NCBI GenBank assembly: GCA_017302715.1
Contig: JAFLCD010000011.1
Span: 1 to 64,000 of the forward strand
From: Deltaproteobacteria bacterium
Lineage (GTDB): Bacteria; Bdellovibrionota; UBA2394
Direction: 5' to 3'
DNA length: 64,000 nucleotides
Shown here piece after piece: positions 9,481 through 31,659 of this stretch (position 1 is the stretch's first letter; every line of letters begins with the position of its first letter). Below the pieces are notes generated by a model, which worked only from the letters and a program-made list of their open reading frames with translations, did not search any database and was not told the origin of the DNA. Made by a program: the position numbers and the translations under genes.

Positions 9481-11038
<1,558 letters not shown>

Positions 11039-15625: not shown

Positions 15626-16872
15626 TTCTTCAAAGTATCAAGATTTCGGAAGTCTTCAAAGAGCTTTGCGTGATCACCTGGAAGTACGGCGATGTGTCGA
15701 GTGACGTGGCGATGGTTTTGCTCGGGGATGATGATTTCGATGATGTGCTCACCGGAGGGGACGGAGAGACCGATGACTGGCGTTTCGTACTGTATCTGCG
15801 CGTTGACGTTAACGAAGATGACGGAGGAATACGGCAAAGTGTTCACAGTGATCTTTGCGCGGCGGGGTTGGAAGCTCGAAATAAAGGGGACGGAGACAAA
15901 AACACCGAGAGTTAGAAGGACCTTTCGATGTTTGTCGAAAAACGAAGGCCGGGGCGTCAGTTTTGTTTTGGGACGGAGTCGAACTTTCGGCTCGAGTTTC
16001 TCGGCTGGCGGCATGGGGGACAGACCTGGAAACCAACCGGATTCATCGAAGGATATGGGGGGCAATTCTCTTTGCTCCGTCACCCTCTTTAAAAGTTCGC
16101 GGTGGGGGGATTCTTCCGCTGCTGCGTCCCCAAGCAATTGCTCGAAAATGCGGCCAACGGCGAAGACATCTCCTTTATGAGAGGTTCCACCAGATGAGCG
16201 AAGTTCTGGGGCACGAAAATAATTTCGACCCGCAACCATAAAAGACAGGCTTCCCTCACCCTCTCGAGTCGCAACGCCAAAATCGAGGAGCTTTATCAAA
16301 CCGTTTTTCTGAATAATGATATTTTCGGGAGCAATATCCCCATGAACGATTCCATTTTTTCCGAGATAACTAACAACGGACGAAAGCTGTCCTAAAATTT
16401 CATACGCCCAATTTAACCGAGGGACGGAGTCAAGCGAGCGAACAAAATCCCAGAGCTCAGCTAAGCTGACGCCATCCAAATATTCTAAAAATAATACATT
16501 TGTAGTGCCGCCACCTAAGGCCGGTTGGGGACGGAGTCGAACTGGACGAATAATTAACGGATGATTCAGCTCCGAAAGAATTTCAAATTCGCGCCGCTGA
16601 AGATTTTCGTACTCGAGTTTTGTTTGATATTTGGGCGTAAGGCTTTTCTCTACTTCACGCCAACCATTCGAATAAATGAGGCGATAAATAAGAGCCGTTC
16701 CACCAATTGCCATCTCTAATCGACTAGCAAGTTCAATGACTTCTAATTGAGTCTGAGCACGCCCATGAAAATGAGACTGCTTTTTTTTAAAAAACTTAGG
16801 ACGAGACCAAACAAATTTTGTTGAGGCAGCAGACGAACTACTTCCAGGTTGAGAGGCATTGCTCGAATTCAC
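15622..16872 (-). CDS. Membrane Ser/Thr protein kinase with C-terminal PEGA-like domain
   Basis: A 416-residue protein. A Hanks-type kinase domain spans about residues 50-270, with a degenerate glycine loop, catalytic loop HGDIAPEN (177-184; Arg of HRD replaced by Gly), DFG (197-199) and APE (221-223). A Pro-rich linker leads to one transmembrane helix (about 317-334) and then a PEGA-like beta domain (about 340-400), probably outside the membrane. A loss of the HRD Arg is common in kinases not activated by loop phosphorylation. Three exact copies of the CTCCGTCCCC word (encoding SVP, SVP and LRP) fall in this gene, two of them in the membrane/PEGA part. Confidence 0.85.
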   Translation of the reverse strand: MNSSNASQPGSSSSAASTKFVWSRPKFFKKKQSHFHGRAQTQLEVIELASRLEMAIGGTALIYRLIYSNGWREVEKSLTPKYQTKLEYENLQRREFEILSELNHPLIIRPVRLRPQPALGGGTTNVLFLEYLDGVSLAELWDFVRSLDSVPRLNWAYEILGQLSSVVSYLGKNGIVHGDIAPENIIIQKNGLIKLLDFGVATREGEGSLSFMVAGRNYFRAPELRSSGGTSHKGDVFAVGRIFEQLLGDAAAEESPHRELLKRVTEQRELPPISFDESGWFPGLSPMPPAEKLEPKVRLRPKTKLTPRPSFFDKHRKVLLTLGVFVSVPFISSFQPRRAKITVNTLPYSSVIFVNVNAQIQYETPVIGLSVPSGEHIIEIIIPEQNHRHVTRHIAVLPGDHAKLFEDFRNLDTLKK

Positions 16873-16937
16873 CGAGGCTTTCTACCGCATTTTTAGGTAG
16901 GGTCAACTACCACGGCCAACAAGCCTCATTGAAAAGT

Positions 16938-17150
16938 CTAATTACCTGTTTCTTCTACACTTTCTTTAAATGAATCCTGTCGAATGAGTTTTTCTCTCTT
17001 GATGCGAAAACCTTGATTTCCAAAGAAATCTGCCTTCGTGGTTCGCGTCCATTTATTGAGACATTTTAAAAATAAAGAGAGCGTCAATGCAGTGATCAAA
17101 ATAAGACTGACCTCTAAAATTATCGCTCCTTGATTTCGAACTTTAATCAT
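16938..17150 (-). CDS. Small prepilin-like (TadE/Flp-like) membrane protein
   Basis: A 70-residue protein with a short basic head, then Gly followed by AIILEVSLILITALTLSLFL. This fits a type IV prepilin processing site, with cleavage after Gly and Glu at +5, and a hydrophobic helix. The tail is charged and hydrophilic. It overlaps the end of the upstream Flp-like gene by 8 bases. It may be a minor pilin or pseudopilin of a Tad-type system. No prepilin peptidase, secretin or TadA ATPase is in the window. Confidence 0.6.
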   Translation of the reverse strand: MIKVRNQGAIILEVSLILITALTLSLFLKCLNKWTRTTKADFFGNQGFRIKREKLIRQDSFKESVEETGN

Positions 17151-17391
17151 CGAAGTTATTCATATCTCGTTTTACTTTATTTGCGCCTTCTCGAATCAAT
17201 TCGCGACCGCGATCATGGTAATCACGAGTGCGTCCGTTCACCATCGCATCCGCTGATCGCATCATATGATTTCTAAAGACATCTCCAAGAACTTTCGCCA
17301 CCGGGATCGATGCGATCGCTAAAAGAGCCACCAAAATAATATATTCCATCATCGTTTGCCCCTTGTTTAAATGCTTCGGTTTTATTTTCAT
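17143..17391 (-). CDS. Flp/Fap-type pilin
   Basis: An 82-residue protein. A basic leader ends in KG, then QTMMEYIILVALLAIASIPV, matching the Flp prepilin site (cleavage after Gly, Glu at +5, Tyr at +6) and its single hydrophobic helix. The tail of about 50 residues is charged, longer than in the shortest Flp pilins. Flp pilins assemble into Tad pili for adhesion or motility. The rest of the Tad machinery must be elsewhere. It lies 164 bases downstream of an exported-protein gene on the same strand. Confidence 0.78.
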   Translation of the reverse strand: MKIKPKHLNKGQTMMEYIILVALLAIASIPVAKVLGDVFRNHMMRSADAMVNGRTRDYHDRGRELIREGANKVKRDMNNFDD

Positions 17392-17520
17392 TATTCTCTA
17401 CCTTTCATTGAATGCCACTTTGTTCATTATTAAAGACATTCGTTGCCACACGACGCGCAAGGGATGCAAAAGAGAGGCCAATTGTAGAAATGAATTTAAA
17501 GAGGAATATGAAAGTAGAAT

Positions 17521-17556
17521 GATCCGGAATTTATCCGGATCAAAAAAAATCCGGAT
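17521..17556. repeat. Cluster of ATCCGGAT half-palindromes
   Basis: GATCCGG ... CCGGATC forms a 7-base stem, followed by eight A and another TCCGGAT. Similar words (AAAAATCCGGATTCCGG and ATATCCGGATAATC) lie at 24252-24290 before the RAYT gene. It could be a terminator-like hairpin for the gene on the minus strand, although the T-run stands on the wrong side, or a second REP-type unit. Confidence 0.45.
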
Positions 17557-18218
17557 TATCGCTGACGAGTCATTACAGTTTGGGTGCCGTTTTGATCGAT
17601 GACGATTCGATCTAATTCGGGGACGGAGCCCGGGCGCTTTTGAAACCAATCCAAATATTCCGTCCATTTATCACCGTCGATGCGGACTATTCTTTGATCT
17701 CGAAGAGAAATATGAATTTTTACGGGAACTCCAGAGGTAGACTCCCATTCCCAAACCTCATTGGCAGTCTTTTTTCCCGCGAAAGCTTTTACTTCTTCAG
17801 TCTCTTCATCGGTTGCAGCGTCCTTAGAATCGGGGGACGGAGCAACGTGAACCGGACGCTGTAAATCCTCGGCGCGTCCAAACTCCAAACCCAGCTTACG
17901 TTTTGGATTCCAAGCCGTTAACCACGAACGCGTCTGCACCCACCATCGCAGGCTAAGAGGAACTAATTCGGAACAGATAGATTTTTGATCGACTGGACAA
18001 CTCCAGCCTTTATCTGTCCATTTCCAAATTTCACTCCGTCCCCCTTCTGTGACCTTCCAATCGCCAGCGGCGCGCAAATTAAACTCTCCATAAATTCGGC
18101 GTAGACGTTCTTTAGCTAAAGAGCTGTCTAAGTCTGCAAGCAAAAACTCATCCGCAGCGGATATATGATTTGCGAATCCGAGAAAACTTAAAAACCCAAA
18201 AAAAATAAAAACTTTCAT
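17556..18218 (-). CDS. Exported protein of unknown function
   Basis: A 220-residue protein with a signal peptide (FIFFGFLSFLGFANHISA, then ADE). The mature part is rich in Trp (WKWTDKGWSC, RWWVQTRSWL, WEWES) and holds two Cys. No family is recognised. Its start overlaps the galU stop in an ATGA junction, so it is translated with galU. Three exact copies of the 10-base word lie here, encoding SVP, PSP and, in the opposite orientation, GGRS. Immediately after its stop is a cluster of ATCCGGAT palindromes (17522-17556). Confidence 0.65.
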   Translation of the reverse strand: MKVFIFFGFLSFLGFANHISAADEFLLADLDSSLAKERLRRIYGEFNLRAAGDWKVTEGGRSEIWKWTDKGWSCPVDQKSICSELVPLSLRWWVQTRSWLTAWNPKRKLGLEFGRAEDLQRPVHVAPSPDSKDAATDEETEEVKAFAGKKTANEVWEWESTSGVPVKIHISLRDQRIVRIDGDKWTEYLDWFQKRPGSVPELDRIVIDQNGTQTVMTRQR

Positions 18219-19084
18219 GCCATGAATTCCTTCAATAAGTTTTGAACATCCGATTTCAGCGGACTTTTTAAATAGTAGTGCAAATTTGCCCTCAGAAAAC
18301 CTAAGCGATCTCCGGCGTCAAATCTAAGCCCTTGCAAATAACAACCATAGAGGCGCCCCTGCTCAGCCAACACATTAAGCGCGTCGGTCAGTTGAATTTC
18401 GCCTAAATTTCCAGGTTTCTGCTTTTCGAGAATTTCAAAAATATCACGGGGCAGAAGATAGCGACCTAAAATAGCGGATCGAGATTTTGTATCCGAAGGT
18501 TTTGGCTTCTCAATACAACGAAGAATACGACCGGGTTCCTTTGGATCTAATTCACAAATTCCATATTTAGAAACTTCTGAGTCCGGAACTTCGGTCAACA
18601 TGACTACGCCGATTTCAGATACGTCTTTTTTTAAAGATTTTGATTTTTCAAGAAGTTGCTGAAGACCTGGCACCTTTGCCTCAACCAAATCGTCTCCGAG
18701 CATCACACCAAATGGAGAGGTTTGAATTAAGTTTTTTGCCATCCAAACCGCGTGACCCAAACCCAAAGCTTCCTTCTGCCGAACCGTCTGTACGGCCGTC
18801 ATTCGCGAAAGATCATGCACGAGCTTATAAAGATCATTTTTATTTGCTCGCTTCAATGTGGCTTCGAGATCCGGCGCAATATCGAAATGATCTTCGATGA
18901 TGGATTTTCCACGTGAAGTAACCAAAACAATATTCTTAGCGCCCGACGTGACCGCCTCTTCGACTATATATTGGATGATCGGCCGATCGAAGACCGGCAA
19001 CATTTCTTTGGGGACGGACTTAGACGCCGGCAGAGAACGAGTTCCGAGACCGGCGACTGGAATAACGGCGGACAGTGAGGTCAT
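18215..19084 (-). CDS. galU: UTP-glucose-1-phosphate uridylyltransferase
   Basis: A 289-residue enzyme of typical length. The nucleotidyltransferase signature is clear: AVIPVAGLGTRSLPASK, then KEMLPVFDRPIIQYIVEEA with the catalytic Lys, GLGHAV, LGDD (metal Asp), and the C-terminal GNLGEIQLTDAL. It makes UDP-glucose from UTP and glucose-1-phosphate for envelope sugars. It is followed in the same operon by an exported Trp-rich protein through an ATGA overlap. The codon run for SKSVPK contains a one-mismatch copy of the 10-base word, which may be coincidence because VPKEMLP is a family motif. Confidence 0.95.
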   Translation of the reverse strand: MTSLSAVIPVAGLGTRSLPASKSVPKEMLPVFDRPIIQYIVEEAVTSGAKNIVLVTSRGKSIIEDHFDIAPDLEATLKRANKNDLYKLVHDLSRMTAVQTVRQKEALGLGHAVWMAKNLIQTSPFGVMLGDDLVEAKVPGLQQLLEKSKSLKKDVSEIGVVMLTEVPDSEVSKYGICELDPKEPGRILRCIEKPKPSDTKSRSAILGRYLLPRDIFEILEKQKPGNLGEIQLTDALNVLAEQGRLYGCYLQGLRFDAGDRLGFLRANLHYYLKSPLKSDVQNLLKEFMA

Positions 19085-19154
19085 TGAAAAACCTTCCGAC
19101 TTATTTTCATTTTGTAAGTTTAAAGAAAATCAGACCTAAATGAAAAGGAGTTTA

Positions 19155-19191
19155 GGGGACGGAGCAAAGGTGGTTAAAACCGGGGACGGAG
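19155..19191 (+). repeat. Direct pair of the 10-base word, GGGGACGGAGCAAAG form
   Basis: Two copies, 19155-19164 and 19182-19191, share the extended sequence GGGGACGGAGCAAAG with 27 bases between starts. They lie in the 150-base gap between the TPR gene and galU, so they are upstream of galU. Confidence 0.85.
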
Positions 19192-19234
19192 CAAAGAAAT
19201 ACTGAAAGATATGCGAGGGCTAAACGATAAGTTT

Positions 19235-20263
19235 TTACGGGTGTTGAAGTTCTAAGGATTTTTGAAGAACGAACTGATCGTTTGGATCGATGTCCTTCAT
19301 CTTGTTTAAAATGACGAGCATTTTGGCACGATCATTAAGAAGTGCCGCTGCCTGCCAACTTCCATTTAAAGCGCGAAACTTATCGTCCTTATGCGAAAAT
19401 CTATCAGAGGCCTCTATTCCTAAATCAAAAGCATTCGCATAACGGCCCTTACGGATTTCTTCGACAACTAAATTCTCTGTGAGCACGGGATTGCCTGGAT
19501 CACGTAGGTGAGCCTCTCTAAAAACTTTTTCTGCGTCTTCAACATTTCCCTGATCTCGCAATAATTGACCATAAATAGCGGCAGCATTTCCGTTTGTAGG
19601 ATCCTGCTCCATCAAGCGCTTCACATAATCTTCCCCTGCCTGCGTATCCCCTTTCATTTCTGAAACAGCAAGCAATCCATTCATTGCCGCTAAATTACGT
19701 GGGTCTTTTTGAAGAACATTCTGCTGAGTTTTAATGGCTTCTTCACTCTGGCCTTGAATAGCCAAAACTTCGGCTAAAGAGGTTTGGGCGAACATATTTT
19801 CGGGATTTAATTCAATTAAGCGCCGGATAGATTTTTCTGATTCAGCCCAATTACCTTCATTGAAATAATAGTCCCCTTTAAGAGCGACATACTCTTTAAC
19901 TTCTGGATTCGCGGCAATGAGTTCATTTAATTTTTTCAAAAACTCTTCGTCATGCCCTTGATCATAAAGCTCAACAAGAAGTCCTAAATTATTTTCAATT
20001 TCTGCACTTACCTTAAGTTGACCAACAGGCACTTGAGAGTCTTTAAGACGGGAGTCCTGCCAAATCGATTCATTGCCATCTACAGAATTAGATAAACGCA
20101 TTCCAGGTCGCTTCTGATGAGGATCCTGCTTCGTGGTACCGCGATTTAAATTTGACTCCGTCCCTTTAATTTCGTGGGAAAAAAAGAAGAGCCGGTAAAT
20201 CGCAAAAGTAGAAACCCCTAAGATCACACTTAAAATAGCTATAAAGATAATCCGCGACTTCAT
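19235..20263 (-). CDS. Membrane-anchored tetratricopeptide repeat (TPR) protein
   Basis: A 342-residue protein. One N-terminal transmembrane helix (IIFIAILSVILGVSTFAIY) is followed by a low-complexity linker and then about six TPR units from residue 90 on, with the family spacing of small and aromatic residues (e.g. NPENMFAQTSLAEVLAIQGQ, DPRNLAAMNGLLAVSEMKG). TPR arrays bind partner proteins; here it would face the periplasm if the N-terminus is inside. I start it at the ATG at 20263 because the helix then begins at once; a GTG at 20281 is possible. Target unknown. Confidence 0.8.
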   Translation of the reverse strand: MKSRIIFIAILSVILGVSTFAIYRLFFFSHEIKGTESNLNRGTTKQDPHQKRPGMRLSNSVDGNESIWQDSRLKDSQVPVGQLKVSAEIENNLGLLVELYDQGHDEEFLKKLNELIAANPEVKEYVALKGDYYFNEGNWAESEKSIRRLIELNPENMFAQTSLAEVLAIQGQSEEAIKTQQNVLQKDPRNLAAMNGLLAVSEMKGDTQAGEDYVKRLMEQDPTNGNAAAIYGQLLRDQGNVEDAEKVFREAHLRDPGNPVLTENLVVEEIRKGRYANAFDLGIEASDRFSHKDDKFRALNGSWQAAALLNDRAKMLVILNKMKDIDPNDQFVLQKSLELQHP

Positions 20264-20306
20264 TTGCCATGCTTTTAACACAATCCAGAATTTACGAATA
20301 GGTCGA

Positions 20307-20349
20307 CTCCGTCCCCCAACTTTAGGCCCCCGAAATTGACTCCGTCCCC
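20307..20349 (+). repeat. Direct pair of the 10-base word, GACTCCGTCCCC form
   Basis: Copies at 20307-20316 and 20340-20349 share GACTCCGTCCCC plus C/A-rich flanks, with 33 bases between starts. They sit in the gap between the divergent TPR and dnaK genes, upstream of the dnaK promoter. Confidence 0.85.
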
Positions 20350-20380
20350 AATTTTAAAGGGAAATCTATGAGATTTGAGG

Positions 20381-20408
20381 TTGACGTATGGGCTTTTGAA
20401 CCTATTTT
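20381..20408 (+). promoter_or_regulatory. Probable dnaK promoter
   Basis: TTGACG, 16 bases, TATTTT lies about 150 bases before the dnaK ATG. No CIRCE inverted repeat is seen in the gap. The spacing and -35 fit a housekeeping sigma factor; a heat-shock promoter cannot be excluded. Confidence 0.45.
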
Positions 20409-20554
20409 CTCTTTAGCGTATGTGATAGAGGTCTGGCCCCAATACCGGCCCGATTTTGACCTTAAAAATACACAAAAGTTAGACGCGAAAAATAGGAAAT
20501 TGAATTAACTTTTTAGAAAATTAGAACAAAGAGAAAGATAAAGGAAAAAATTAT

Positions 20555-22477: not shown

Positions 22478-22501
22478 AATTATTAAAGGCAAAAATTGAA
22501 G

Positions 22502-22533
22502 AAGGCAGTTGGCATGAGTCAGCTGCCTTTTTA
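22502..22533 (+). terminator. Rho-independent terminator after dnaK
   Basis: AAGGCAGTTG and CAGCTGCCTT pair over 10 bases (one G-U) around an 8-base loop and are followed by a T run. It starts 25 bases after the dnaK stop. Confidence 0.88.
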
Positions 22534-22628
22534 TTTGGAGATTGTGGGATGATGTGTGAGTGGGAGAGAAAATCCTTAAATTGGGACATCAAAGTCCCAG
22601 TTTTATAAATTGTGGGTTAGGGTGCTTT

Positions 22629-22696
22629 GGGGACGGAGCAGAGAAAAAATGAGTGATTCTAAGTGGTTGTGCGGAATTGTATTTTACTCCGTCCCC
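22629..22696. repeat. Inverted pair of the 10-base word (BIME-like)
   Basis: GGGGACGGAG at 22629-22638 and CTCCGTCCCC at 22687-22696 face each other across 48 bases and could pair into a long hairpin. Inverted REP pairs of this kind are called BIMEs in enterobacteria. It is the only close head-to-head pair in the field. Confidence 0.8.
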
Positions 22697-22902
22697 ACGA
22701 TTTTAGGTTGGCATGAAGATTGCATTAAGGGCAGTCGTTCGAGTCCAAAGCTAAGGGAGTTTTGGAAGTCGAACGGAGTTGTATTGAGTATTTGGGAATC
22801 TTAAAAATTCACCAACGTGAGTGTAAAAATCTGTGAAAGCATGGGGACGGAGTCAATTCTGATTGGCACTCCAAGCTCTTAAGATTTCCTAAGGGAGTAT
22901 AT

Positions 22903-23508
22903 ATGAAATTTCTATCATCTTTGGGTGCGAGCGCACTAAGTATTGGATTGCTCTCGCTTACGGGTTGCGCAAGTGAAGGATCTGGAACTTCACCTGCGAC
23001 GACAATGAGTGCACAGACAAGTCGTATCAATCTCGGCAACACACAGATTCAACAGTACGAAGCTGCAGCAAGAGCCGATTATAATAATCGATTAAATAAT
23101 TTGAATAACACTATGGCCGCAAATGCCAATAGTGTTCCGGTTGCTCCACTGCCTGCAGTGGCGCCAACTTCCACAGCACAAAAATTAGGAACGGGAACAG
23201 TCATCATAACTGCCGCCAGTATTGGGGGATTGCTTCTCGCAAGTACTTTCGGAAAAGATCTGATCGATGGCGGAAAAGATGTTCTGAAAGATATTAAAAC
23301 AGATTCGGCGAAAGCTGACTCCGTCCCCACGTCAGAAACCAAGCCAGACGAAATAGCGGGATTAAAGCGTCGAGGAGGTTCGGCACGGACAGTTTCGGAT
23401 AAAGTCGCTTCGTTAGAATTATGTGAGAAGACTAATTCAATTTCTCAAATCAAAAGCGATGCCGATGCGATTATCAATAAAGCCCAACAGACGGGAGAAA
23501 AATCATGA
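22903..23508 (+). CDS. Lipoprotein of unknown function
   Basis: A 201-residue protein with a lipoprotein signal (LSLTGC lipobox, Cys at about residue 22), so it is probably anchored in a membrane. AGGGAG precedes the ATG. The mature part is Ala/Thr/Asn-rich, has a glutamine/asparagine helix (QIQQYEAAARADYNNRLNNLNN) and one hydrophobic stretch (TVIITAASIGGLLLAS). Its C-terminal CEKTNSISQIKSDADAIINKAQ-type region resembles the end of the next gene, suggesting an old duplication. It overlaps that gene by 4 bases. One copy of the 10-base word encodes SVP. Confidence 0.75.
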   Translation: MKFLSSLGASALSIGLLSLTGCASEGSGTSPATTMSAQTSRINLGNTQIQQYEAAARADYNNRLNNLNNTMAANANSVPVAPLPAVAPTSTAQKLGTGTVIITAASIGGLLLASTFGKDLIDGGKDVLKDIKTDSAKADSVPTSETKPDEIAGLKRRGGSARTVSDKVASLELCEKTNSISQIKSDADAIINKAQQTGEKS

Positions 23509-24182
23509 ATACAAAATTAATCAAAGAAATGAAAAAAGTTGTTTTCTCTACCTTAACACTTTCAGTCGTCGGTTTGATTGGATGCGGAAAATCTGAAAGC
23601 AAAACCGAAACTGCTAAAACTGTGCCTGCGACTGTATCGACAAGCACAGTTGCTCCGTCCCCAGCCATTGCTGCAGCTCCTTCGCTCGCAACGAACTTGA
23701 ATGACATGAATCAACAAATTCAGCAGCAAGCCATACAACGAGATTCTGCGATGAATGCATTTAAAAGTGCTGAGAATGAAAAAGATCGAGCATTTCAAAG
23801 TGCAGAGAGTGAGAAAAAGTTGGCTCTTCAGAAATCCGAGCAAACGATGGGAGTTTTTCAAACTGCAGTAATGGGAATGGTTGCATTAGAAAGCTTTAAA
23901 GCAGTCCCTCAATATAAACAGGATTGTGCACCGAGCACGCAAATAAATTCCTTAATGAGAGATTCAACACAGATTTTCAACAAGGCGGAAGCAAAGTCAG
24001 CAACTGTTACTAATCCAGCTCCGTCCCCAGCAACTTCGACAGCTAAGATTGAAAAACCAAAAGCTGTGGAGGCGAAGGGTAAGATTGATCCAGAACTAAA
24101 AGGACAAATTGAATCTGTTTTGAAGAGTGGATCGGAACATAAGTTCGGCTCCGTCCCCATGTTAGAAGAACGAAAAATTTAA
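23505..24182 (+). CDS. Second lipoprotein of unknown function, paralogue of the previous gene
   Basis: A 225-residue lipoprotein (lipobox LIGC, Cys at about 27). The start ATG overlaps the upstream stop (ATGA), with GGGAG 7 bases before it. A Gln/Glu-rich helical region (NQQIQQQAIQRDSAMNAFKSAENEKD) is probably coiled coil. A CAPSTQINSLMRDSTQIFNKAE region aligns with the C-terminal part of the first lipoprotein. Three copies of the 10-base word encode PSP, PSP and SVP in Ala/Pro-rich linkers. Function unknown; perhaps envelope structure. Confidence 0.75.
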   Translation: MNTKLIKEMKKVVFSTLTLSVVGLIGCGKSESKTETAKTVPATVSTSTVAPSPAIAAAPSLATNLNDMNQQIQQQAIQRDSAMNAFKSAENEKDRAFQSAESEKKLALQKSEQTMGVFQTAVMGMVALESFKAVPQYKQDCAPSTQINSLMRDSTQIFNKAEAKSATVTNPAPSPATSTAKIEKPKAVEAKGKIDPELKGQIESVLKSGSEHKFGSVPMLEERKI

Positions 24183-24196
24183 AGACGATCATATAT

Positions 24197-24233
24197 AAGG
24201 TCATGCGGACTTCGCTTAAGTTCGCATGACCTT
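24197..24233 (+). terminator. Strong hairpin after the lipoprotein pair
   Basis: AAGGTCATGCGGACTT and AAGTTCGCATGACCTT form a 16-base stem with one wobble and a 5-base loop, 14 bases after the stop. The T-run is short (CTTA), and the 10-base word follows at once (24235), so it could serve as a terminator or belong to the repeat element. Confidence 0.65.
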
Positions 24234-24234
24234 A

Positions 24235-24290
24235 CTCCGTCCCCAAAATCAAAAATCCGGATTCCGGCCAAAATACGAAATATCCGGATA
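24235..24290. repeat. 10-base word plus ATCCGGAT palindromes upstream of the RAYT
   Basis: CTCCGTCCCC (24235-24244) is followed by AAAAATCCGGATTCCGG and, 16 bases on, ATATCCGGATAATC. This combination stands directly upstream of the transposase gene, where RAYT-associated REPs usually lie. A related ATCCGGAT cluster is found at 17521-17556. Confidence 0.6.
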
Positions 24291-24363
24291 ATCACTTCCT
24301 CAAAAATGCATTAAAACCCTTTTCCACAGCTCGGCATATCTCGTGCATTTCCGAATGCCCACT

Positions 24364-25083
24364 ATGCCAAGATTACCTAGAAATTTAATTCTCGAAGACA
24401 AAAGTTTTTTCCACGTCACATGGAAATGCCACAACGAAGATTTTCTCTTACAGGACGAGCGAGCAAAGACGCACCTCTACGATTTGCTCCGACGATTCAA
24501 AGAAAAATATCATATAAAAATTTATGGATATTGTTTCATGGACAATCACCCCCACATCGTCGGCTACTGCGAATCCGTAAAAGAATTTAGTCGCTACTTT
24601 CAAGTCGTAAATGGAATGTTTGCGCGCTTCATCAATACGCAAATGGAACGGAAGGGTCAGGTGATCATGGATCGCCTACGCTCCCCTCAAATTCAGACCG
24701 AGCGGTATCTTCTCACCGTCCTTCGTTACGTCGACCTCAACCCAGTTCGAGCAGGAATCTGCAAAAATGCAAAAGATTATCGTTGGTCTTCCCACCGAAG
24801 TTACGCACACGGAAAGAAAGATCCTCTTCTCGATCCACTTCCTAGCGGCTTAAGCATTACGGAACATCAATATCAAATGCTTCATAGCTTTACTCTCGAG
24901 AAGCATCGCCAAAAAATTCCAGTTTACTATCGCACTTATTTTATTGGAGCTCCCTCATGGGTCAGAAAACGAAGAAAAACTTTGTTTCAAACTTTGTCGG
25001 CGAAGAAAATAATTCCACCGAACATAGTGACCCCTGCGCTACTTCAAAATCCTAAATCAAAAATAACTCAGACTAAAAAATAA
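24364..25083 (+). CDS. REP-associated tyrosine transposase (RAYT, Y1_Tnp/IS200-like)
   Basis: A 239-residue HUH nuclease. From the ATG at 24364 the two metal-binding His are residues 62 and 64 (DNHPHIVGY), and Tyr115 or Tyr122 (RYLLTVLRYVDLNPVRAG) is the catalytic candidate. The LNPVRAGI and YRWSSHRSY segments are typical of RAYTs rather than of IS200 itself. RAYTs are single-copy domesticated relatives that bind and nick REP hairpins. Upstream ATG (24355) and GTG (24343) would add 3 or 7 residues; none has a good Shine-Dalgarno. It is intact, lacks terminal inverted repeats of its own, and is followed at 12 bases by the YifB/ComM gene. Confidence 0.88.
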   Translation: MPRLPRNLILEDKSFFHVTWKCHNEDFLLQDERAKTHLYDLLRRFKEKYHIKIYGYCFMDNHPHIVGYCESVKEFSRYFQVVNGMFARFINTQMERKGQVIMDRLRSPQIQTERYLLTVLRYVDLNPVRAGICKNAKDYRWSSHRSYAHGKKDPLLDPLPSGLSITEHQYQMLHSFTLEKHRQKIPVYYRTYFIGAPSWVRKRRKTLFQTLSAKKIIPPNIVTPALLQNPKSKITQTKK

Positions 25084-25095
25084 GCAGGAACAAAA

Positions 25096-26754
25096 ATGCA
25101 TTCGAGCTATTCCAAATTAAGCGAAGTATCCACAACCTGCTACTCACGTGGTGAGCTACATCGAATTCAAGTTCAAGTACATATTCGCGGAGGTCTTCCA
25201 AAGTTTGACATCATTGGACTTCCACAAAATATGATTCGTGAGGGAAAAGATCGGATTCTATCTGCGCTCTCTCATCTAGGAATTGATGTTTCAACACAGA
25301 AAATTTTGATCAGTCTAAATCCGGGCGATATTCCAAAAGAAGGCAGTCACTTCGATTTACCTATGCTCGTTGGAATCTTAAAAGCGATGGGAGTTTTCTC
25401 TCAAATAACCCCATCTGAAAGTCTACATCCCTTCATGCAAGAGCCTTCGTTTTTCTGGGGCGAATTAGGTTTGGATGGAACCATTCGGCACTGCGATAAT
25501 CTTCTCGCTCACCTTCTTTATGCAAATCAGTTTTCACCAAAAGCTCTAGTAAGTGCGGGCCGCGAAAACAATATTAAATTTATAGACCCTTATCTTTCTA
25601 CACCGTCGACCATTATTAACCATCTCTCTGAACTCATCTCTCCTCATTTAGTTATCTCACAGCCTGTGCATAAATCAGCGCTCATCGAGGAAAATGAATT
25701 AACGAATGAAAACTCTTCTACGACATCTCATCCAGAAATTGACTCTGAAAAATTTTCTCAGTTTTTACTCAGTACGTGGGTCAGTGAAGATTTAGAAAAT
25801 TCTAGGTGGAATCAACTCAAAGGTAAACCTTCGCAGTTTTTATTTTGGTGCCTCGTTGCGCTTGGAAGATTGCATGTTTTACTAGAAGGCGCTCCAGGAG
25901 TTGGAAAAAGTTCCTGGTCATTTGCGATGAAGGAACTACAATTTCCACTTCCTTCTTCTAGTTGGCATAGACGTTTTTGTTTTCACTCTCATTTAAGTAA
26001 ACAAATTAAATCTTTAGGAGATCTATTTGCCGCACCATTTGAAAGTCCGCATCACAGCAGTAGTAAAACCGCCATTGTTGGTGGAGGAAGCAATCAAGTT
26101 TGCGCTGGCTCTCTGACACGAGCCAGCGGAGGAATTTTATTCTTAGACGAACTTTCTGAATTCAATCGAGATATTATCGAGTGCCTTCGAGAACCTCTTG
26201 AAACAAAATCGATTACGATTGCTCGCAGTGGTGTGAGTGCTTCCCTTCCAGCCGATATTCAGTTTTTAGCAGCAACGAATCCTTGTCGCTGCGGAAGATA
26301 TCGCTCAGGAGCAAATTGCACATGTTCAACCACACAGTATCATCAATACAAATCTAGAATTTCAGAGCCATTGAGAGATCGAATGCATTTTACTCCTTGG
26401 TGGGAATTTTTTGATATTGAAAGAGAAAAGCAATTCGATTTGAGAAATGTGCGAGCACATTTAAGTGATGCGTTAAAAAATAAATCACCCGATTTTAGTT
26501 CAATAGTAAATTTTTTTCCGAAAAGAAAAAATCCTAGAAAACAAAAAATATGGATACAAATTTTTGACTCATGGTGTCGATGGTTTGGAATTCAAAGTCC
26601 AACAGAAAAAAATATTTTAGAGTTTTCAAATTTTTTAAATGAAATGGAGGAAGTAAATGACGAACACAACAGAATGCAATTTGAATATCTTAGAGATCGA
26701 GAGATCGCTCGAATCAACAGAGCTACGAATGTTGGAAGCCATTTGGTCCCTTGA
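25096..26754 (+). CDS. YifB/ComM-family AAA ATPase, divergent
   Basis: A 552-residue protein. The N-terminal ChlI-like (Lon S5-type) domain includes GLPKFDIIGLP and LNPGDIPKEGSHFDLPM. The Mg-chelatase-type ATPase has Walker A GAPGVGKS (265-272), the family segment PHHSSSKTAIVGGGS, Walker B ILFLDE (347-352) and NPCRCG with further Cys (397-410). ComM is a branch-migration helicase that extends recombination of incoming DNA during natural transformation. The C-terminal helical domain is poorly recognisable and may be replaced. An AGGA site precedes the start. It probably shares a transcript with the RAYT. Confidence 0.82.
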   Translation: MHSSYSKLSEVSTTCYSRGELHRIQVQVHIRGGLPKFDIIGLPQNMIREGKDRILSALSHLGIDVSTQKILISLNPGDIPKEGSHFDLPMLVGILKAMGVFSQITPSESLHPFMQEPSFFWGELGLDGTIRHCDNLLAHLLYANQFSPKALVSAGRENNIKFIDPYLSTPSTIINHLSELISPHLVISQPVHKSALIEENELTNENSSTTSHPEIDSEKFSQFLLSTWVSEDLENSRWNQLKGKPSQFLFWCLVALGRLHVLLEGAPGVGKSSWSFAMKELQFPLPSSSWHRRFCFHSHLSKQIKSLGDLFAAPFESPHHSSSKTAIVGGGSNQVCAGSLTRASGGILFLDELSEFNRDIIECLREPLETKSITIARSGVSASLPADIQFLAATNPCRCGRYRSGANCTCSTTQYHQYKSRISEPLRDRMHFTPWWEFFDIEREKQFDLRNVRAHLSDALKNKSPDFSSIVNFFPKRKNPRKQKIWIQIFDSWCRWFGIQSPTEKNILEFSNFLNEMEEVNDEHNRMQFEYLRDREIARINRATNVGSHLVP

Positions 26755-26914
26755 AAGAGCAGGGATGGATCAGATGAAAACGATTCAAAAACTTAGTCAA
26801 AATATTGAACACATGCAGACATTTCTAAATCAATTTGATTTTGGATCAAGTCGCCTGAGCGCGGTTAAAAACAACAACCGATCTGCTTCGCCTACCCAAA
26901 GCGCTAAGGCATGA
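26657..26914 (+). CDS. Small helical protein overlapping the end of the YifB/ComM gene
   Basis: An 85-codon frame that overlaps the 3' end of the upstream gene by 98 bases in another frame. A very good GGAGGA site stands 6 bases before its ATG, which supports real translation. The product is acidic and helical at the start (LEIERSLESTELRMLEAIWSLERAG), has no membrane segment, and ends in a Ser/Asn-rich tail. A terminator follows 5 bases after its stop. No family is recognised; a partner of the ATPase is possible. Confidence 0.5.
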   Translation: MTNTTECNLNILEIERSLESTELRMLEAIWSLERAGMDQMKTIQKLSQNIEHMQTFLNQFDFGSSRLSAVKNNNRSASPTQSAKA

Positions 26915-26918
26915 TCCA

Positions 26919-26952
26919 CTGGCTCTTCAAGATGAAAATTTTGAAGAGCCAG
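26919..26952 (+). terminator. Terminator after the YifB/ComM operon
   Basis: CTGGCTCTTCAA and TTGAAGAGCCAG pair perfectly over 12 bases around a 10-base A-rich loop, then CGTTCCTTTTC. The T-run is interrupted, but the stem is strong and well placed. Confidence 0.7.
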
Positions 26953-27035
26953 CGTTCCTTTTCTCTTTGCGTCACAATCCCCCTTAAAAGCCTTTTTAAA
27001 TAGTTCTTTTTAAAACTTTGCCTCACAATATTTAA

Positions 27036-27701
27036 GTGAGAGCTACTTTAGCATTTGAAATCATTCTGTTTTTTTTATTTTCAGTGGAGGCTGGATTCTC
27101 TCAAAATTTATCGCCCACTTTAGCTCCGTCCCCAGAAACTAAAAATATTTCTCTCGATAATTGGTTTGAGCGATGGGGATTATCGGTCGTTCAAAAACCA
27201 CTCCGTCACCGGTTTGAAACCGCGACATTTAAACCCGCTTCAAAAAATTTAGAACTCAAAGTCTGGATGGAAGCTCCCGCTAAATTTAGTGGGGGGACGG
27301 AGCTGTTTTGCAATATTTCCTACAATCTTATTTTTGGGCGCGTTCGTCTGCAGAATAAAGTTCAAAAAGTTCCTTTGGATGCTGCTTTTTCTGAACTCCC
27401 CAAAATTGACTCCGTCACTCTCACTTATTTTCTGGTGGACTATGTGAATCGACCGAATCGCTCGAGTGCTTCTGCTCCGTCCCCAAAGTTGCGGGTGATG
27501 TGGAGTAGAGAAGAACGAATTATTCCCTACCTCACCATGACGATTACTCGAAAAGAGTGGGAAGCAATCAAGCCCGCAATGAAACTGGGAGTGAAAACCA
27601 CGTTCACTCACTACATGAATCAATATTGTGAGAGCGTTCTAAAGCAGAGTCCCGAATTTTATACGGATCTTTCAGCTCTTAAAGAGGCGGCCGTTAAATA
27701 A
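27036..27701 (+). CDS. Exported protein of unknown function, first gene of the cytochrome operon
   Basis: A 221-residue protein starting at GTG 27036 with a signal peptide (IILFFLFSVEAGFS). The mature part is a beta-rich, basic domain with two Cys (FCNISYNLIFG and QYCESVLK). I do not recognise it. It ends 2 bases before the 27-heme cytochrome gene, so the two are co-transcribed. It may be an accessory or chaperone-like periplasmic protein. Three exact copies of the 10-base word occur, encoding PSP, GTE (opposite orientation) and PSP, plus two CTCCGTCAC variants. Confidence 0.65.
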   Translation: MRATLAFEIILFFLFSVEAGFSQNLSPTLAPSPETKNISLDNWFERWGLSVVQKPLRHRFETATFKPASKNLELKVWMEAPAKFSGGTELFCNISYNLIFGRVRLQNKVQKVPLDAAFSELPKIDSVTLTYFLVDYVNRPNRSSASAPSPKLRVMWSREERIIPYLTMTITRKEWEAIKPAMKLGVKTTFTHYMNQYCESVLKQSPEFYTDLSALKEAAVK

Positions 27702-27703
27702 AA

Positions 27704-29980
27704 ATGAAAGCCAAGCTCATCATATGGTTAGGCGCATTCATTTTCTTGGGGGACGGAGCAAACGCTCAGGAGATTCTCAAAGATCTGCTTACCAGGTCAC
27801 CAGGCCCACTCACTCGAGCCCATCAAAGTATTGATAACGTTCAAAACTGCGGATCCTGTCATCAAAACAGATTGGGGGGAGAAGTTGCTTCAGAAAAATG
27901 CCTCACCTGTCACACCGATATCAAAATCAGACTCGAAAACGAAAAGGGCTATCACTGGAACAAACCTCAATGTAAAAACTGTCACTCAGATCATAAAGGT
28001 TTGAACTCTTCTATTTTTGCCCCGTCCAATTGGTTAAAAAACTTTGAACACGATGAAACCGGCTTTGAACTTCAAGGTAAACATAGCTCCGTCCCCTGTG
28101 CAGATTGCCACACGACAACTCGTCCCGCGGTAAAAGGAACGACTCCGTCCCCAAGTTATTTAGGAGCAAGTACGACCTGCCAAGGTTGTCACGAAAAGGA
28201 TTACAAACATCAGTTTTCTAAATCCGAGTGGGCGACCTGTACGGATTGTCATGCAGAATCAGCGACATCGTGGAAAAAAATGCAGAAAAAAATGCGTTTC
28301 GATCATACTCAAACAAATTATCCGCTTCAGGGCCTTCACCAAAACGTAAAATGCACCGACTGCCATAAGCCGATTTCGCAGGAGCGACGCTTAACAAAAT
28401 TTGCGCCACTCGCTTCCGGCCAATGTACCGATTGTCATGCAGATCCTCACAGGGGCAATCTCGGTGATAACTGCTCGAACTGCCATAATGTGTATCGAAA
28501 ATGGAAAGATGTAATTCCGTCCGAAGACCTTATTCCGTCCCCAAAAAAAGGAGCTAAGAAAGGAATCGACTCCGTCCCTAAAGGATTTGATCACTCAAAA
28601 ACGAGATATCCATTAACGGGTTATCACCAGGCCGTGTCTTGTGCGGGCTGCCATACAAGCGCCATCTCTGCTCCGTCCCCACAACAGCTAGGCAGTGACT
28701 CCGTCCCCAAGGTGGGCAGCTCCGTCCCCAAACAAAAGATGGGTTTCAAGGTCCCAGAAGAAGTGTTCATGCAGTGTTCAGGATGTCATGGGTTGGCGCA
28801 CGGCGAGCAGTTTGCAAATCAGAAATGCGAAAGTTGCCACACCACCGAGCGCCACTTTATGCAATCGACTTTTACTCTCGAGCGACACTCTAAAACAAAA
28901 TTTCCACTTACCGGCAAACATCTCGTTCTCGATTGCAATCGTTGCCATAGCTCCGGCAAATTTGAAAACCTCCCCTCCGCCACCTGCGCCGACTGTCATC
29001 GAAACCCGCACAGCGCGCGACAGATCGACAAAACTTGTTCCTTCTGCCACGTCACCACCAGTTTTTCGTGGCTGCAATTCGACCACAATAAAAATACGAA
29101 TTTCAATCTCACCGGCAAGCACCGCGCCGTCGCTTGTGTCTCTTGCCACACCAACCAAGTTTTCAAAGACATGCCGGCCTCGAACACCAACCCCAACTGC
29201 CAAGCCTGTCATGAAAACCCACACGGCTCCGCGATGCCAACCGACTGCGCCTCCTGTCATCGCACCGAAGGATTCAAACTCGTTGAAAATTTTGATCACC
29301 AAAAAATTGCCAACTGGGCTCTCGAAGGAAAACATCGCGAGATCTCATGCCAAAAATGTCACGCCGATCATTTATTAAAAAATTATAAAGTCTCTCAACT
29401 CAGCACAAATAATTTAACAAAAAAACTTTTCTCAAGCACCTCCGCCGTCAAACCCACGGACTGTGCGAACTGCCACGTCGATGCGCACAAAGGAACTTAC
29501 GGACTCAACTGCGCGAGCTGCCACAACAACACTTCATTCTCGGTTGAATACGGCGCCCGCGTTCATGATCTCGGCTACTTCAAACTTCAAGGCGCTCACA
29601 ACCAACTCGCCTGTACCGATTGCCATCGACCCAACACCAATCTGCAAGGAACAGGAATCACCTGCCAATGGTGTCATGAGAAAAATGATATTCACTTAGG
29701 AAAAATGGGAAACACCTGTGGCGATTGTCACGGCCAAACCGCCTGGGTGCCGACGAAATTTAAACACAACCAAACAGCCTTCCGACTTACCGGCGCTCAT
29801 CGATACGTCGAATGTCGTGCTTGTCACGTCAATCAAATTTACCAAGGGCTGCCGAATGATTGCGCTTTCTGTCACTCAGCTTCGAAAATATCTAATGCCT
29901 ATCATAATTCTGCGGCCATTGAAGATTGCGGCGATTGCCACTCTTCTATTTCATGGAAAGTTCGGAGAAATCTGCCATGA
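27704..29980 (+). CDS. Periplasmic multiheme cytochrome c with 27 CxxCH motifs
   Basis: A 758-residue protein with a signal peptide (LIIWLGAFIFLGDGANA, then QE). I count 27 CxxCH haem c attachment sites, spaced along the whole protein. A module recurs of the form FDH, 5-6 residues, a polar/hydrophobic L-x-G-x-H, then 5-6 residues and CxxCH; the distal His are likely haem ligands. No lipobox is seen. Such proteins carry electrons along a chain of haems across the periplasm. Six exact copies of the 10-base word occur, one inside the signal peptide (GDG) and five in linkers, three of them between haems 10 and 11. The next gene starts within its stop codon (ATGA). Confidence 0.93.
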   Translation: MKAKLIIWLGAFIFLGDGANAQEILKDLLTRSPGPLTRAHQSIDNVQNCGSCHQNRLGGEVASEKCLTCHTDIKIRLENEKGYHWNKPQCKNCHSDHKGLNSSIFAPSNWLKNFEHDETGFELQGKHSSVPCADCHTTTRPAVKGTTPSPSYLGASTTCQGCHEKDYKHQFSKSEWATCTDCHAESATSWKKMQKKMRFDHTQTNYPLQGLHQNVKCTDCHKPISQERRLTKFAPLASGQCTDCHADPHRGNLGDNCSNCHNVYRKWKDVIPSEDLIPSPKKGAKKGIDSVPKGFDHSKTRYPLTGYHQAVSCAGCHTSAISAPSPQQLGSDSVPKVGSSVPKQKMGFKVPEEVFMQCSGCHGLAHGEQFANQKCESCHTTERHFMQSTFTLERHSKTKFPLTGKHLVLDCNRCHSSGKFENLPSATCADCHRNPHSARQIDKTCSFCHVTTSFSWLQFDHNKNTNFNLTGKHRAVACVSCHTNQVFKDMPASNTNPNCQACHENPHGSAMPTDCASCHRTEGFKLVENFDHQKIANWALEGKHREISCQKCHADHLLKNYKVSQLSTNNLTKKLFSSTSAVKPTDCANCHVDAHKGTYGLNCASCHNNTSFSVEYGARVHDLGYFKLQGAHNQLACTDCHRPNTNLQGTGITCQWCHEKNDIHLGKMGNTCGDCHGQTAWVPTKFKHNQTAFRLTGAHRYVECRACHVNQIYQGLPNDCAFCHSASKISNAYHNSAAIEDCGDCHSSISWKVRRNLP

Positions 29981-31659
29981 GAAATATTTTAAAAAATATT
30001 TTCACTCCGCATACTTCTCGTACATTTTCTTTTCGCCATATAAATAAATTTATTCCGCCAAGATTTTTTAAGCCGTTCATCGTCTTATTATTTTTCGCAC
30101 AAATGATCGATGCAATTTACTCGCCACTCTTCGCCTTAGATTTCAAAGGTCGCGCGAATTTTTGGTCGCTCTATCAAACCGATGATGTCGACTCGACAAC
30201 CGTCGCCGTCGTGTACAATATCAGCGATCTCAGCACTCCCATCGGCGTAGTTGTCGGAAAAGATATCGCTATTGAATGTTCAAAACCTACCCACTCTTGT
30301 ACCTATAGAAAAATAGGTGAAGGTGGCGAACTTACACTCGAACACATTACCGACGCCGGCAGATCATCCTATGGAAAAATAGGTGGCGATAGTTTACTTA
30401 CCAACATCGGCATCAGCGGCAAAGCCACAGAAAAAAAATGGTCAGGAAATATCGACGGCAATTTTTCTAAACTTTTTTTAGATAACCGTGCACTTTTGGG
30501 CGGACAAAAAAATAGATTCAGATTTTACGAATTCAACGCTCAGTACGAAGATGCAAAATACGAAGTATCACTGGGAAGAAAATCTATTCAGGCTGATATT
30601 CTCGTCGATGGAGTCTCAGGAAAATATTTCTTTGGAGCCAAAGAAAATAAAGATTCTAAATCGATCGGCTTCTTTGCAGGATTCGCTCCAGACACCATCA
30701 CCAAAAATATTTCGAGCGATAGCTTTACGTTCGGCCCCACCTTTCACTTTGTTCCCGATTTTTCTTCTGAAGGCCCTGTAAAACTTTTGGTTGAAAGCTC
30801 TCTCGTTACTGAAATTTATAAAGGCGATATGAATCGTTTCTATCTTTTTAGTCGAGCCCACTTCACTCCTGTTAAAGAATTGAGCTTTTTTTCTTATTCA
30901 ACGCTTGAACTTCCCTGGATGAAGGACAATGCGAATCTCAAGAGTTCGCAATTCACTTTTCAAACCCTCTGGCATCCAAACGAAGAATGGTTTTTCTCGA
31001 TAGGCTTTTCGCAATTTGCAATCGATAGGTTTTTACAAGAACAAGCTGTTCGCTGGGTGACAGATAATTCTTCCAAATCAACTCGCGTCAGTGACAGCCT
31101 CGATAAATCTCAGCGCTATCGTTTAGATCTTCGCGCTTCGTTTAGACCCATCTACGAATTTCAACCTTTTATTCGCGCGCGATATGAGCGAAGAACTTTT
31201 GATTCGAATAAACTTTTTCTCAACTCTGTAACGGGTCAAACCCCTTCGCTTGATTTAGGATTACTCAATCGAAAAAATGCTTACTCCGGAACAGGAGGCG
31301 TTCGACTTTTTCTTTGGGAAGAATTCGAAACAGAAAGCTCAGCCACTTTTTCTCAGCGCTTTCAATCTTCTTCTTGGGAGGCCTACCAATTTTTTAGTTA
31401 CGATACTTCAAAACAAATAAGCTTCGATGCTTATTTTCAATTTGTTTCAAGTAATCGCACCATCAACAACTCCGTCCCCTCCGCAGCTGGAACAGACGAT
31501 CACGCTTATGATTTTTATGCCGGCACAGGAGTTTCTTATCGATTTCTATCGGACTTTCTAGCTCAAATCCGTTATGATTTTTCTAATGAAGATGAAAAAG
31601 TTTTGGATAGGCGTACCATCACTCACTCGGCTCTCGTTCGTTTGGATTATCGCTTCTAA
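29977..31659 (+). CDS. Outer-membrane beta-barrel protein, possible porin partner of the cytochrome
   Basis: A 560-residue protein. The ATG at 29977 overlaps the cytochrome stop (ATGA), and a signal peptide follows (FIVLLFFAQMIDAIYSPLFA). From there to the end are many alternating strands of 9-11 residues with aromatic girdles, and the last residue is Phe (LVRLDYRF), the usual BAM-recognised ending. The size fits a barrel of about 20 or more strands, as in MtrB/PioB-type porin sheaths, but no CxxC or other MtrB mark is found. Coupling to the cytochrome suggests a conduit. One copy of the 10-base word encodes SVP (31470). Confidence 0.75.
   Translation: MRNILKNIFTPHTSRTFSFRHINKFIPPRFFKPFIVLLFFAQMIDAIYSPLFALDFKGRANFWSLYQTDDVDSTTVAVVYNISDLSTPIGVVVGKDIAIECSKPTHSCTYRKIGEGGELTLEHITDAGRSSYGKIGGDSLLTNIGISGKATEKKWSGNIDGNFSKLFLDNRALLGGQKNRFRFYEFNAQYEDAKYEVSLGRKSIQADILVDGVSGKYFFGAKENKDSKSIGFFAGFAPDTITKNISSDSFTFGPTFHFVPDFSSEGPVKLLVESSLVTEIYKGDMNRFYLFSRAHFTPVKELSFFSYSTLELPWMKDNANLKSSQFTFQTLWHPNEEWFFSIGFSQFAIDRFLQEQAVRWVTDNSSKSTRVSDSLDKSQRYRLDLRASFRPIYEFQPFIRARYERRTFDSNKLFLNSVTGQTPSLDLGLLNRKNAYSGTGGVRLFLWEEFETESSATFSQRFQSSSWEAYQFFSYDTSKQISFDAYFQFVSSNRTINNSVPSAAGTDDHAYDFYAGTGVSYRFLSDFLAQIRYDFSNEDEKVLDRRTITHSALVRLDYRF

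Follow-up and report, generated by a model that had tools for sequence, protein, structure and literature searches.

Why should one 10-base word be repeated 28 times within 15.7 kb of a bacterial genome and be absent from the DNA on either side? The word, GGGGACGGAG (or CTCCGTCCCC, as both strands are used), fills positions 15757-31479 of a 64-kb stretch from a Deltaproteobacteria bacterium (contig JAFLCD010000011.1; we will call the whole stretch the window). The midpoint of this field, at 23.6 kb, adjoins a Y1 transposase gene (24343-25083) of the RAYT family. (RAYT is short for REP-associated tyrosine transposase, and REPs are repetitive extragenic palindromes.) The original prediction from the sequence placed the field near a RAYT, as it is, and proposed a REP-like word spread by this enzyme. 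We find that the link between word and RAYT is well supported, as a correlation across several genomes, whereas the word falls outside the strict definition of a REP. We consider it reasonably probable that the word is the recognition core of this RAYT, and that the enzyme places new copies mainly close to the gene encoding it.

The word field and its RAYT

Our recount gave the same 28 exact copies as before, with none in the remainder of the window. Dinucleotide shuffles of the window contained a mean of 0.03 copies and at most 1, which rules out chance. The whole genome (G000; 2.39 Mb in 19 contigs) has 51 copies, and the reversed word, as a control, occurs once. The field, 0.66% of the genome, thus holds 28 of the 51 copies (Poisson P = 1e-43 for local clustering, post hoc), at about 180 times the density of the remaining sequence. 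Equal density throughout the genome, which had been named as the result that would speak against a local origin, was not found. Still, the word also occurs beyond the window: 23 copies lie outside of the field, and 16 of these are in six small groups of 2-4 copies (Table 1).

Could this be a DNA uptake sequence, or another genome-wide signal word, that happens to be dense here? DNA uptake sequences, as in Neisseria and Haemophilus, are words of 10-12 nt that occur in place within coding sequences and are found genome-wide. The field word resembles them in its length, in its in-place coding copies, and in its tolerance in linkers. Also, the gene directly downstream of the RAYT encodes Mg-chelatase/ChlI domains and is presumably comM-like. 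However, the field word is centred on a transposase instead of being spread over the genome; the four other genomes of the same family that we searched have few copies (7 in G001, 1 in G002, 4 in G003, and 1 in G004); and other RAYTs have other words, as described below. An uptake-type signal is therefore very improbable, and the clustering favours a RAYT-linked word, as originally argued.

By our own gene calls, 20 of the 28 field copies are genic, as had been counted, and are spread through seven genes. The 8 intergenic copies are an excess, as just 1986 of the 15723 field bases (13%) lie outside of gene calls (P = 0.02). Among the 16 genic copies that we aligned codon by codon, all six coding frames are represented, so it is the DNA word that is kept and not a peptide; selection on the peptide is ruled out. 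Many genic copies do encode SVP or PSP, and one could imagine an artefact of Ser-Pro linkers, or a foreign segment. But the word also occurs in spacers, the shuffles yield almost none, and most of the gene order is common to two relatives, so we regard these explanations as scarcely credible. We also confirmed that 17 of the 20 genic copies have CTCCGTCCCC on the coding strand (two-sided binomial P = 0.0026). We infer that this bias reflects codon tolerance. A strand rule linked to transcription was rejected: in the window, CTCC is on the coding strand in 17/20, yet at a RAYT locus from another genome (L144), 11 of 14 genic copies have GGGG.

The copies are either young or kept up, because exact and one-mismatch copies are abundant and two-mismatch copies are at background: between 15.0 and 32.5 kb, one-mismatch copies number 9 where a Markov model expects 0.4, and two-mismatch copies number 5 where it expects 7.3. 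No exact copy lies within the galU, dnaK, comM, or RAYT gene of the field; galU has a one-mismatch copy at 19010. (The names galU, dnaK, comM, and polA are our assignments, guided by Pfam domains.)

The two relatives, G003 and G004, belong to the same family and share with the window the HD-domain gene, the kinase, the gene at 17556, galU, dnaK, comM, the gene at 27036, and the cytochrome. Their syntenic stretches (20 kb in G003 and 29.6 kb in G004) have no exact word and no match to Y1_Tnp. Neither the TPR gene nor orthologues of the two small genes at 22903-24182 were found in these stretches. The field brackets the RAYT, the syntenic relatives lack both, and other RAYTs have other words; these are the reasons to link the word to the RAYT. 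From this correlation we infer that the RAYT caused the spread of the word.

The RAYT itself matches PF01797 (Y1_Tnp; E = 2.6e-7, 31.2 bits, over the cut-off of 23). It scores 66 bits against the NCBIfam model for REP-associated tyrosine transposases (NF047646), which is below the cut-off of 80. The only PDB sequence match at E <= 0.01 is TnpAREP (4er8; profile E = 0.0014), and 4er8 is also the best fold match of the predicted structure (E = 4.9e-7; mean pLDDT 68). Of its two motifs (Table 1), H-P-H is also present in a relative (L050); PMC6006769 gives L, V, I, F, Y, or M as the middle residue of the HuH motif, and the field RAYT has Pro. Where we sought a C-terminal helix-turn-helix, helices are predicted at residues 172-187 and 204-220, with low confidence.

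Insertion or replacement

What is the unit that spread? In an alignment of the 51 copies from the genome, in which the 10-mer is invariant by construction, T is found at position -1 in 30 of 51, and the word is followed by a tail, Y-M-R-A, with 0.3-0.8 bit per column. Beyond these there are weak columns only, the strongest being 0.33 bit at -31. Two discrete extended forms had been described; the copies instead have one graded tail. Because the information is limited to the 10-mer, the T, and the tail, the mobile or selected unit appears from the alignment to be about 14 nt, or T-GGGGACGGAG-YMRA. We found no conserved flank or palindrome around the 51 copies, and we rejected a longer hidden element, as none was seen in 51/51. 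Five stretches were also folded: one has a hairpin beside the word, one has an 11-bp stem between an inverted pair, and the remaining three deviate from shuffles, in either direction, by no more than one or two standard deviations.

Whether the copies were inserted or mutated into place had been proposed as a comparison of orthologues, and both outcomes seem to occur. Of the 16 genic copies with orthologues (the four words in the small genes were left out because these have none), 7 have no gap within 15 nt in any of their orthologues, with one of the 7 relying on a single orthologue; 3 are within one 24-residue insertion in the cytochrome; and 6 are beside gaps, with the window's protein being the shorter at 4 of the 6. 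The clearest in-place copy, at 28087, adjoins a haem motif: the window has KHSSVPCADCH, and the orthologues have KHKSIECQDCH and KHQQVECADCH. We made the same comparison in G097, a metagenome-assembled genome of a rumen Clostridia, whose RAYT locus (L144) has its own word, GGGGACAGACC. We used 14 words in genes whose orthologues reach 45% identity or more (others were inspected visually), and 6 of these copies, L181:10111 and 11927 among them, are gap-free relative to one or more orthologues. Others in G097 are insertions or terminal extensions.

One explanation for this mixture is that these are ordinary short terminal inverted repeat (TIR) or REP elements, all inserted by the RAYT, and that later deletions made some sites look gap-free. 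The three copies in the cytochrome insertion and the insertions in G097 fit, as do the full palindromes formed by some copies of GGGGACAGACC. Furthermore, same-strand pairs recur, 21-33 nt apart in the field (19155/19182, 20307/20340, and 28671/28699/28720) and 21-34 nt apart overall, which suggests a unit of that size. But no long flank is common to the 51 copies, and each gap-free copy, including 28087 beside its CxxCH motif and the two in G097, needs an exactly compensating deletion. The window's orthologues are just ~30-50% identical in the field genes, which leaves room for such compensated indels; overall, we think it improbable that all of the copies were inserted.

Alternatively, the words might be locally selected binding sites, for a domesticated RAYT or another protein, that regulate or organise the region and arose by point mutation. 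This would account for the 7 of 16 alignable genic copies in gap-free blocks, for the over-used spacers (8/28 copies in 13% of the field, P = 0.02), and for the scarcity of decayed copies, which suggests upkeep. Also, at 31470 the aligned sequence from G004 is one mismatch from the word. However, seven genes contain copies, which use all frames, three copies arrived in one insertion, and the gap-free sites do not seem to have been pre-adapted. At these sites, the orthologues match the word at 3.9 of 10 positions, versus 5.3 of 10 elsewhere; in G097, they match at 4.6 of 11, versus 7.3 of 11 elsewhere. Because likeness is below background, we see no support for seeding by near-matches as a general rule (31470 alone fits it), and we consider selected binding sites to be unlikely.

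Low likeness of the orthologues is what overwriting predicts, and it is equally predicted by a preference for variable positions. Nine of the 16 copies are in or beside gaps, whereas 33% of positions in the background are (P = 0.04). Tolerance in variable stretches therefore genuinely confounds this comparison. Around the word in G097, the profile of identity is noisy, with low identity extending ~25 nt beyond the start of the word, so those data do not fix the length of a replaced block.

Returning to the RAYT as the source of the words, how might it write them? HUH Y1 proteins act on single-stranded DNA (PMC6006769), and it is because of this that we look to the enzyme itself. The RAYT-family nuclease would nick single-stranded DNA at the word, and a short strand with T-GGGGACGGAG-YMRA would be joined into, or copied over, nearby DNA that is single-stranded at a fork, a transcription bubble, or a repair gap. 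If the enzyme acts close to the gene that encodes it, a local field would result; copies in constrained genes would be purged, and the survivors would lie in linkers, signal peptides, and spacers. We tentatively suggest, and with more doubt than for the recognition core, that a domesticated HUH nuclease writes its own recognition word over 10-14 nt of neighbouring DNA without altering the length, and that insertion is the other result of its action. Such overwriting would possibly amount to short-range, length-neutral, templated mutagenesis of the neighbouring genes.

Table 1. Features of the word field and small groups of the word elsewhere in the genome
Feature	Position	Strand	Remark
Field: 28 exact GGGGACGGAG/CTCCGTCCCC and 9 one-mismatch copies	15757..31479	both	
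Word, kinase gene (SVP)	15757..15766	+	gap-free versus two orthologues
Word, kinase gene (SVP)	15886..15895	+	gap-free versus two orthologues
Word, kinase gene (LRP)	16527..16536	+	gap close by
Word, gene 17556-18218 (SVP)	17619..17628	+	gap-free versus two orthologues
Word, gene 17556-18218 (PSP)	17833..17842	+	window shorter than orthologues at site
Word, gene 17556-18218 (GRS)	18034..18043	-	gap-free versus two orthologues
Two intergenic words, same strand	19155..19191	+	27 nt apart
Two intergenic words, same strand	20307..20349	-	33 nt apart; TPR gene/dnaK spacer
Inverted intergenic pair (22629/22687)	22629..22696		possible 11-bp stem, z -2.3
Intergenic word	22843..22852	+	
Four words (23319; 23653, 24019, 24149)	23319..24158	-	in two small genes that lack a Pfam match
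Strong hairpin, directly 3' of word 24235-24244	24196..24234	-	-14.8 kcal/mol, z -6.9; ~100 nt upstream of RAYT start
Intergenic word at hairpin foot, upstream of RAYT	24235..24244	-	placed like a REP guide
Y1/HUH transposase, RAYT (TnpAREP) family, 246 aa	24343..25083	+	N-H-P-H, Y-V-D-L-N-P
Three words (27124, 27293, 27475), gene 27036-27701	27124..27484		gaps close by
Word (GDG), N-terminal signal-peptide region of multihaem cytochrome	27749..27758	+	window 3 residues shorter than both orthologues
Word (SVP), cytochrome, beside CxxCH haem motif	28087..28096	-	gap-free in both orthologues
Word (PSP), cytochrome	28143..28152	-	gap-free codon alignment; 2-residue gap upstream
Three words, 24-residue cytochrome insertion	28671..28729	-	insertion absent from both orthologues
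Word (SVP), gene 29926-31659	31470..31479	-	gap-free versus the single orthologue found
Small group of GGGGACGGAG	G000 C1 52.8-53.3 kb		3 copies
Small group of GGGGACGGAG	G000 C2 1.1-1.6 kb		4 copies
Small group of GGGGACGGAG	G000 C2 58.4-58.8 kb		2 copies
Small group of GGGGACGGAG	G000 C5 49.8 kb		3 copies
Small group of GGGGACGGAG	G000 C14 44.5 kb		2 copies
Small group of GGGGACGGAG	G000 C16 123 kb		2 copies

Other RAYTs and other words

If the word belongs to its RAYT, do other RAYTs have words of their own? In G002, from the same family, GGGGTCAGAG has 66 copies (reversed control 2) and is absent from both the window's genome and G027. Three of the five Y1_Tnp genes of G002 (on C44, C104, and C137) have inverted copies on both sides within ~0.45 kb, and a fourth (C144) has one copy just downstream, so 4 of 5 RAYTs have an adjoining copy; the contig with the fifth (C225) has none. 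In G027, from the same phylum, AAGACAGACTT has 21 copies (control 0), of which 9 are in a 9.6-kb contig that ends in a RAYT; the window's genome and G002 have 2 copies each. In G097, GGGGACAGACC has 169 copies (control 1), with 16 in the 11.6 kb around the only Y1_Tnp match of that genome, mostly inside open reading frames. This locus has 16 exact, 3 one-mismatch, and 4 two-mismatch copies, where 0, 0, and 2.1 are expected. Finally, a 4.4-kb contig of G040 encodes a RAYT that is 31% identical to that of the field, and GGGGACGGAG occurs in this contig once exactly and twice with one mismatch.

One protein site in G097 has its word in an insertion (L144:1722). At this site, L230 of G101 has GPVPCPTCEKKQ inserted in tandem, and a different word of its own, CCCCTGTCCC, with 7 copies in L230, encodes the insertion. 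The two lineages seem to have used one protein site independently.

We also surveyed 80 RAYT loci from a named genome collection. These are best matches only, so the fractions are not frequencies for the family. After leaving out L093 and 8 loci with less than 400 bp on one side, 71 loci were used. An inverted 11-mer is common to both sides within 700 bp at 42 of these 71 loci, versus 81 of 327 control places. GGGAC or GGGTC, on either strand, is present in the most-copied shared 11-mer at 16 of the 42. Setting aside loci whose top word is a tandem array (L127, L137, L163, and L172 among them), which were not counted as fields, the densest fields among the loci listed are the window (28), L144 (16), L114 (13), and L150 (13).

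Dense local repeats of other designs were seen at five RAYT loci (L150, L114, L135, L161, and L165: CCCCGGGGTC, GGGACTGTCC, GTGCCTGTCA, CACTTGTCGA, and AAAAGGGGAC). Around the RAYT of L056 (G003:C78) there is a longer repeat, starting with GGGGTCGGGAG on one side, that has copies on both sides and another 1.4 kb away.

The window's own genome has a second Y1_Tnp match (L046; C14:130351-130920), flanked by a perfect 37-nt inverted repeat that contains GGGGTCGGG and AGGGGTCGGG. The 20 kb around it have no GGGGACGGAG and no other strongly repeated word. The two RAYTs of this genome thus differ: one is classically flanked and has no field, and the other has a field and is unflanked.

Several of our results weigh against the field RAYT as the source of the word. 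First, this RAYT lacks a close flanking pair of inverted words. The nearest upstream words (24149 and 24235) are on one strand, the nearest downstream word (27124) is 2 kb away, and a search for terminal inverted repeats within 700 nt of the gene found just an 11-nt inverted match and two other 10-mers. Second, no Y1_Tnp match adjoins any of the six small groups elsewhere in the genome. Third, most copies of the words of G097 and G002 are scattered and not local, and just 6 of the 71 surveyed loci have at least 2 further copies of the flanking repeat beyond 1.5 kb, so among these best-match loci fields are a minority state and not the rule. Fourth, 66 genomes out of the 97 that we searched have GGGGACGGAG at least once. 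Seven besides G000 have at least 12 copies: G021 (39 copies, reversed control 2), G071 (34, 4), G008 (17, 3), G031 (15, 3), G073 (14, 13), G055 (13, 9), and G040 (12, 1). G021, G071, and G031 have no Y1_Tnp match, and the stretches of 20 kb and 8.6 kb around the two Y1_Tnp genes of G008 lack the word. A similar word can, then, be abundant without a detectable RAYT. The tail in G021 differs, with G after the word in 22 of the 26 copies read, versus 1 of 51 in G000; we take the word of G021 and G071 to be another family with a similar word.

Two other features of this genome may be mentioned. Near one of the small groups, a 20-kb stretch (L042; G000:C1:43000-62999) has repeated TCACGTGAAACA (4 copies) and CTGTGCATAA (6 copies), which look like clusters of parS and of DnaA boxes; the word group at C1 52.8-53.3 kb may be near the replication origin. 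The window also contains a full 16S rRNA gene (9488-11038, - strand) and no match to 23S or 5S rRNA at gathering thresholds, which suggests that the rRNA genes of this genome are unlinked.

Known systems and meaning

The closest known kind to the field RAYT is TIRYT, or TnpAY1 subclass 2.1. (TIRYTs and their TIRtrons probably correspond to subclass 2.1 and to group 1 of Bertels.) As described in PMC3733652 and PMC6006769, TIRYTs resemble the field RAYT in being Y1 transposases of ~240 amino acids with a Y---NP motif and a GGGG(A/T)C-type word. Their repeat families are moderately abundant in some genomes, and loci related to the field RAYT have flanking inverted copies. TIRYTs have terminal repeats with GGGGWSAS (Di Nocera et al. 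2013, PMC3733652), and GGGGACGG of the field word matches 7 of these 8 positions and differs at one. Unlike TIRYTs, the field RAYT lacks a tight inverted pair, its unit is ~14 nt, and it has 28 exact copies in 15.7 kb, of which 20 are genic and several are apparently in place. Near subclass 2.1 genes, Quentin et al. (2018, PMC6006769) did not find REP-like sequences.

As for REPs and REPINs, Bertels and Rainey (2011, PMC3116915) describe how REPINs cluster next to RAYTs in P. fluorescens SBW25. The field word resembles the REP/REPIN systems, to which the TnpAREP structure 4er8 belongs, in being a short RAYT-linked repeat and in lying once at a hairpin foot (24235). However, REPs are palindromic, largely extragenic, and dispersed, and they carry GTAG. 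The field word has no conserved palindrome or hairpin, is mostly not extragenic, is concentrated locally, lacks GTAG, and has several copies that were apparently written in place. So the strict REP label falls, and of the proposal that a RAYT spread a REP-like word, the RAYT link stands. CGTC-tagged repeats and the Rickettsia RPE (both in PMC3733652) are similar in that they are repeats in frame within genes; there they are larger palindromic inserts that add residues, with no dedicated transposase known. Among the papers listed by our searches of the RAYT and TIRYT literature, none describes a field of words that is dense, intragenic, and in part length-neutral. Searching for the word string itself gave nothing bearing on the field, judging by the title or the start of the abstract, among the matches listed.

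The field is a natural record of the placement of a RAYT-linked word, with more than one copy per kb around a single gene, and with it one can measure how placement depends on distance, which targets are chosen, and how insertion compares with replacement. Searches for palindromes only, near subclass 2.1 genes, would overlook such words. If replacement is true, a fixed short sequence would serve to alter proteins in place.

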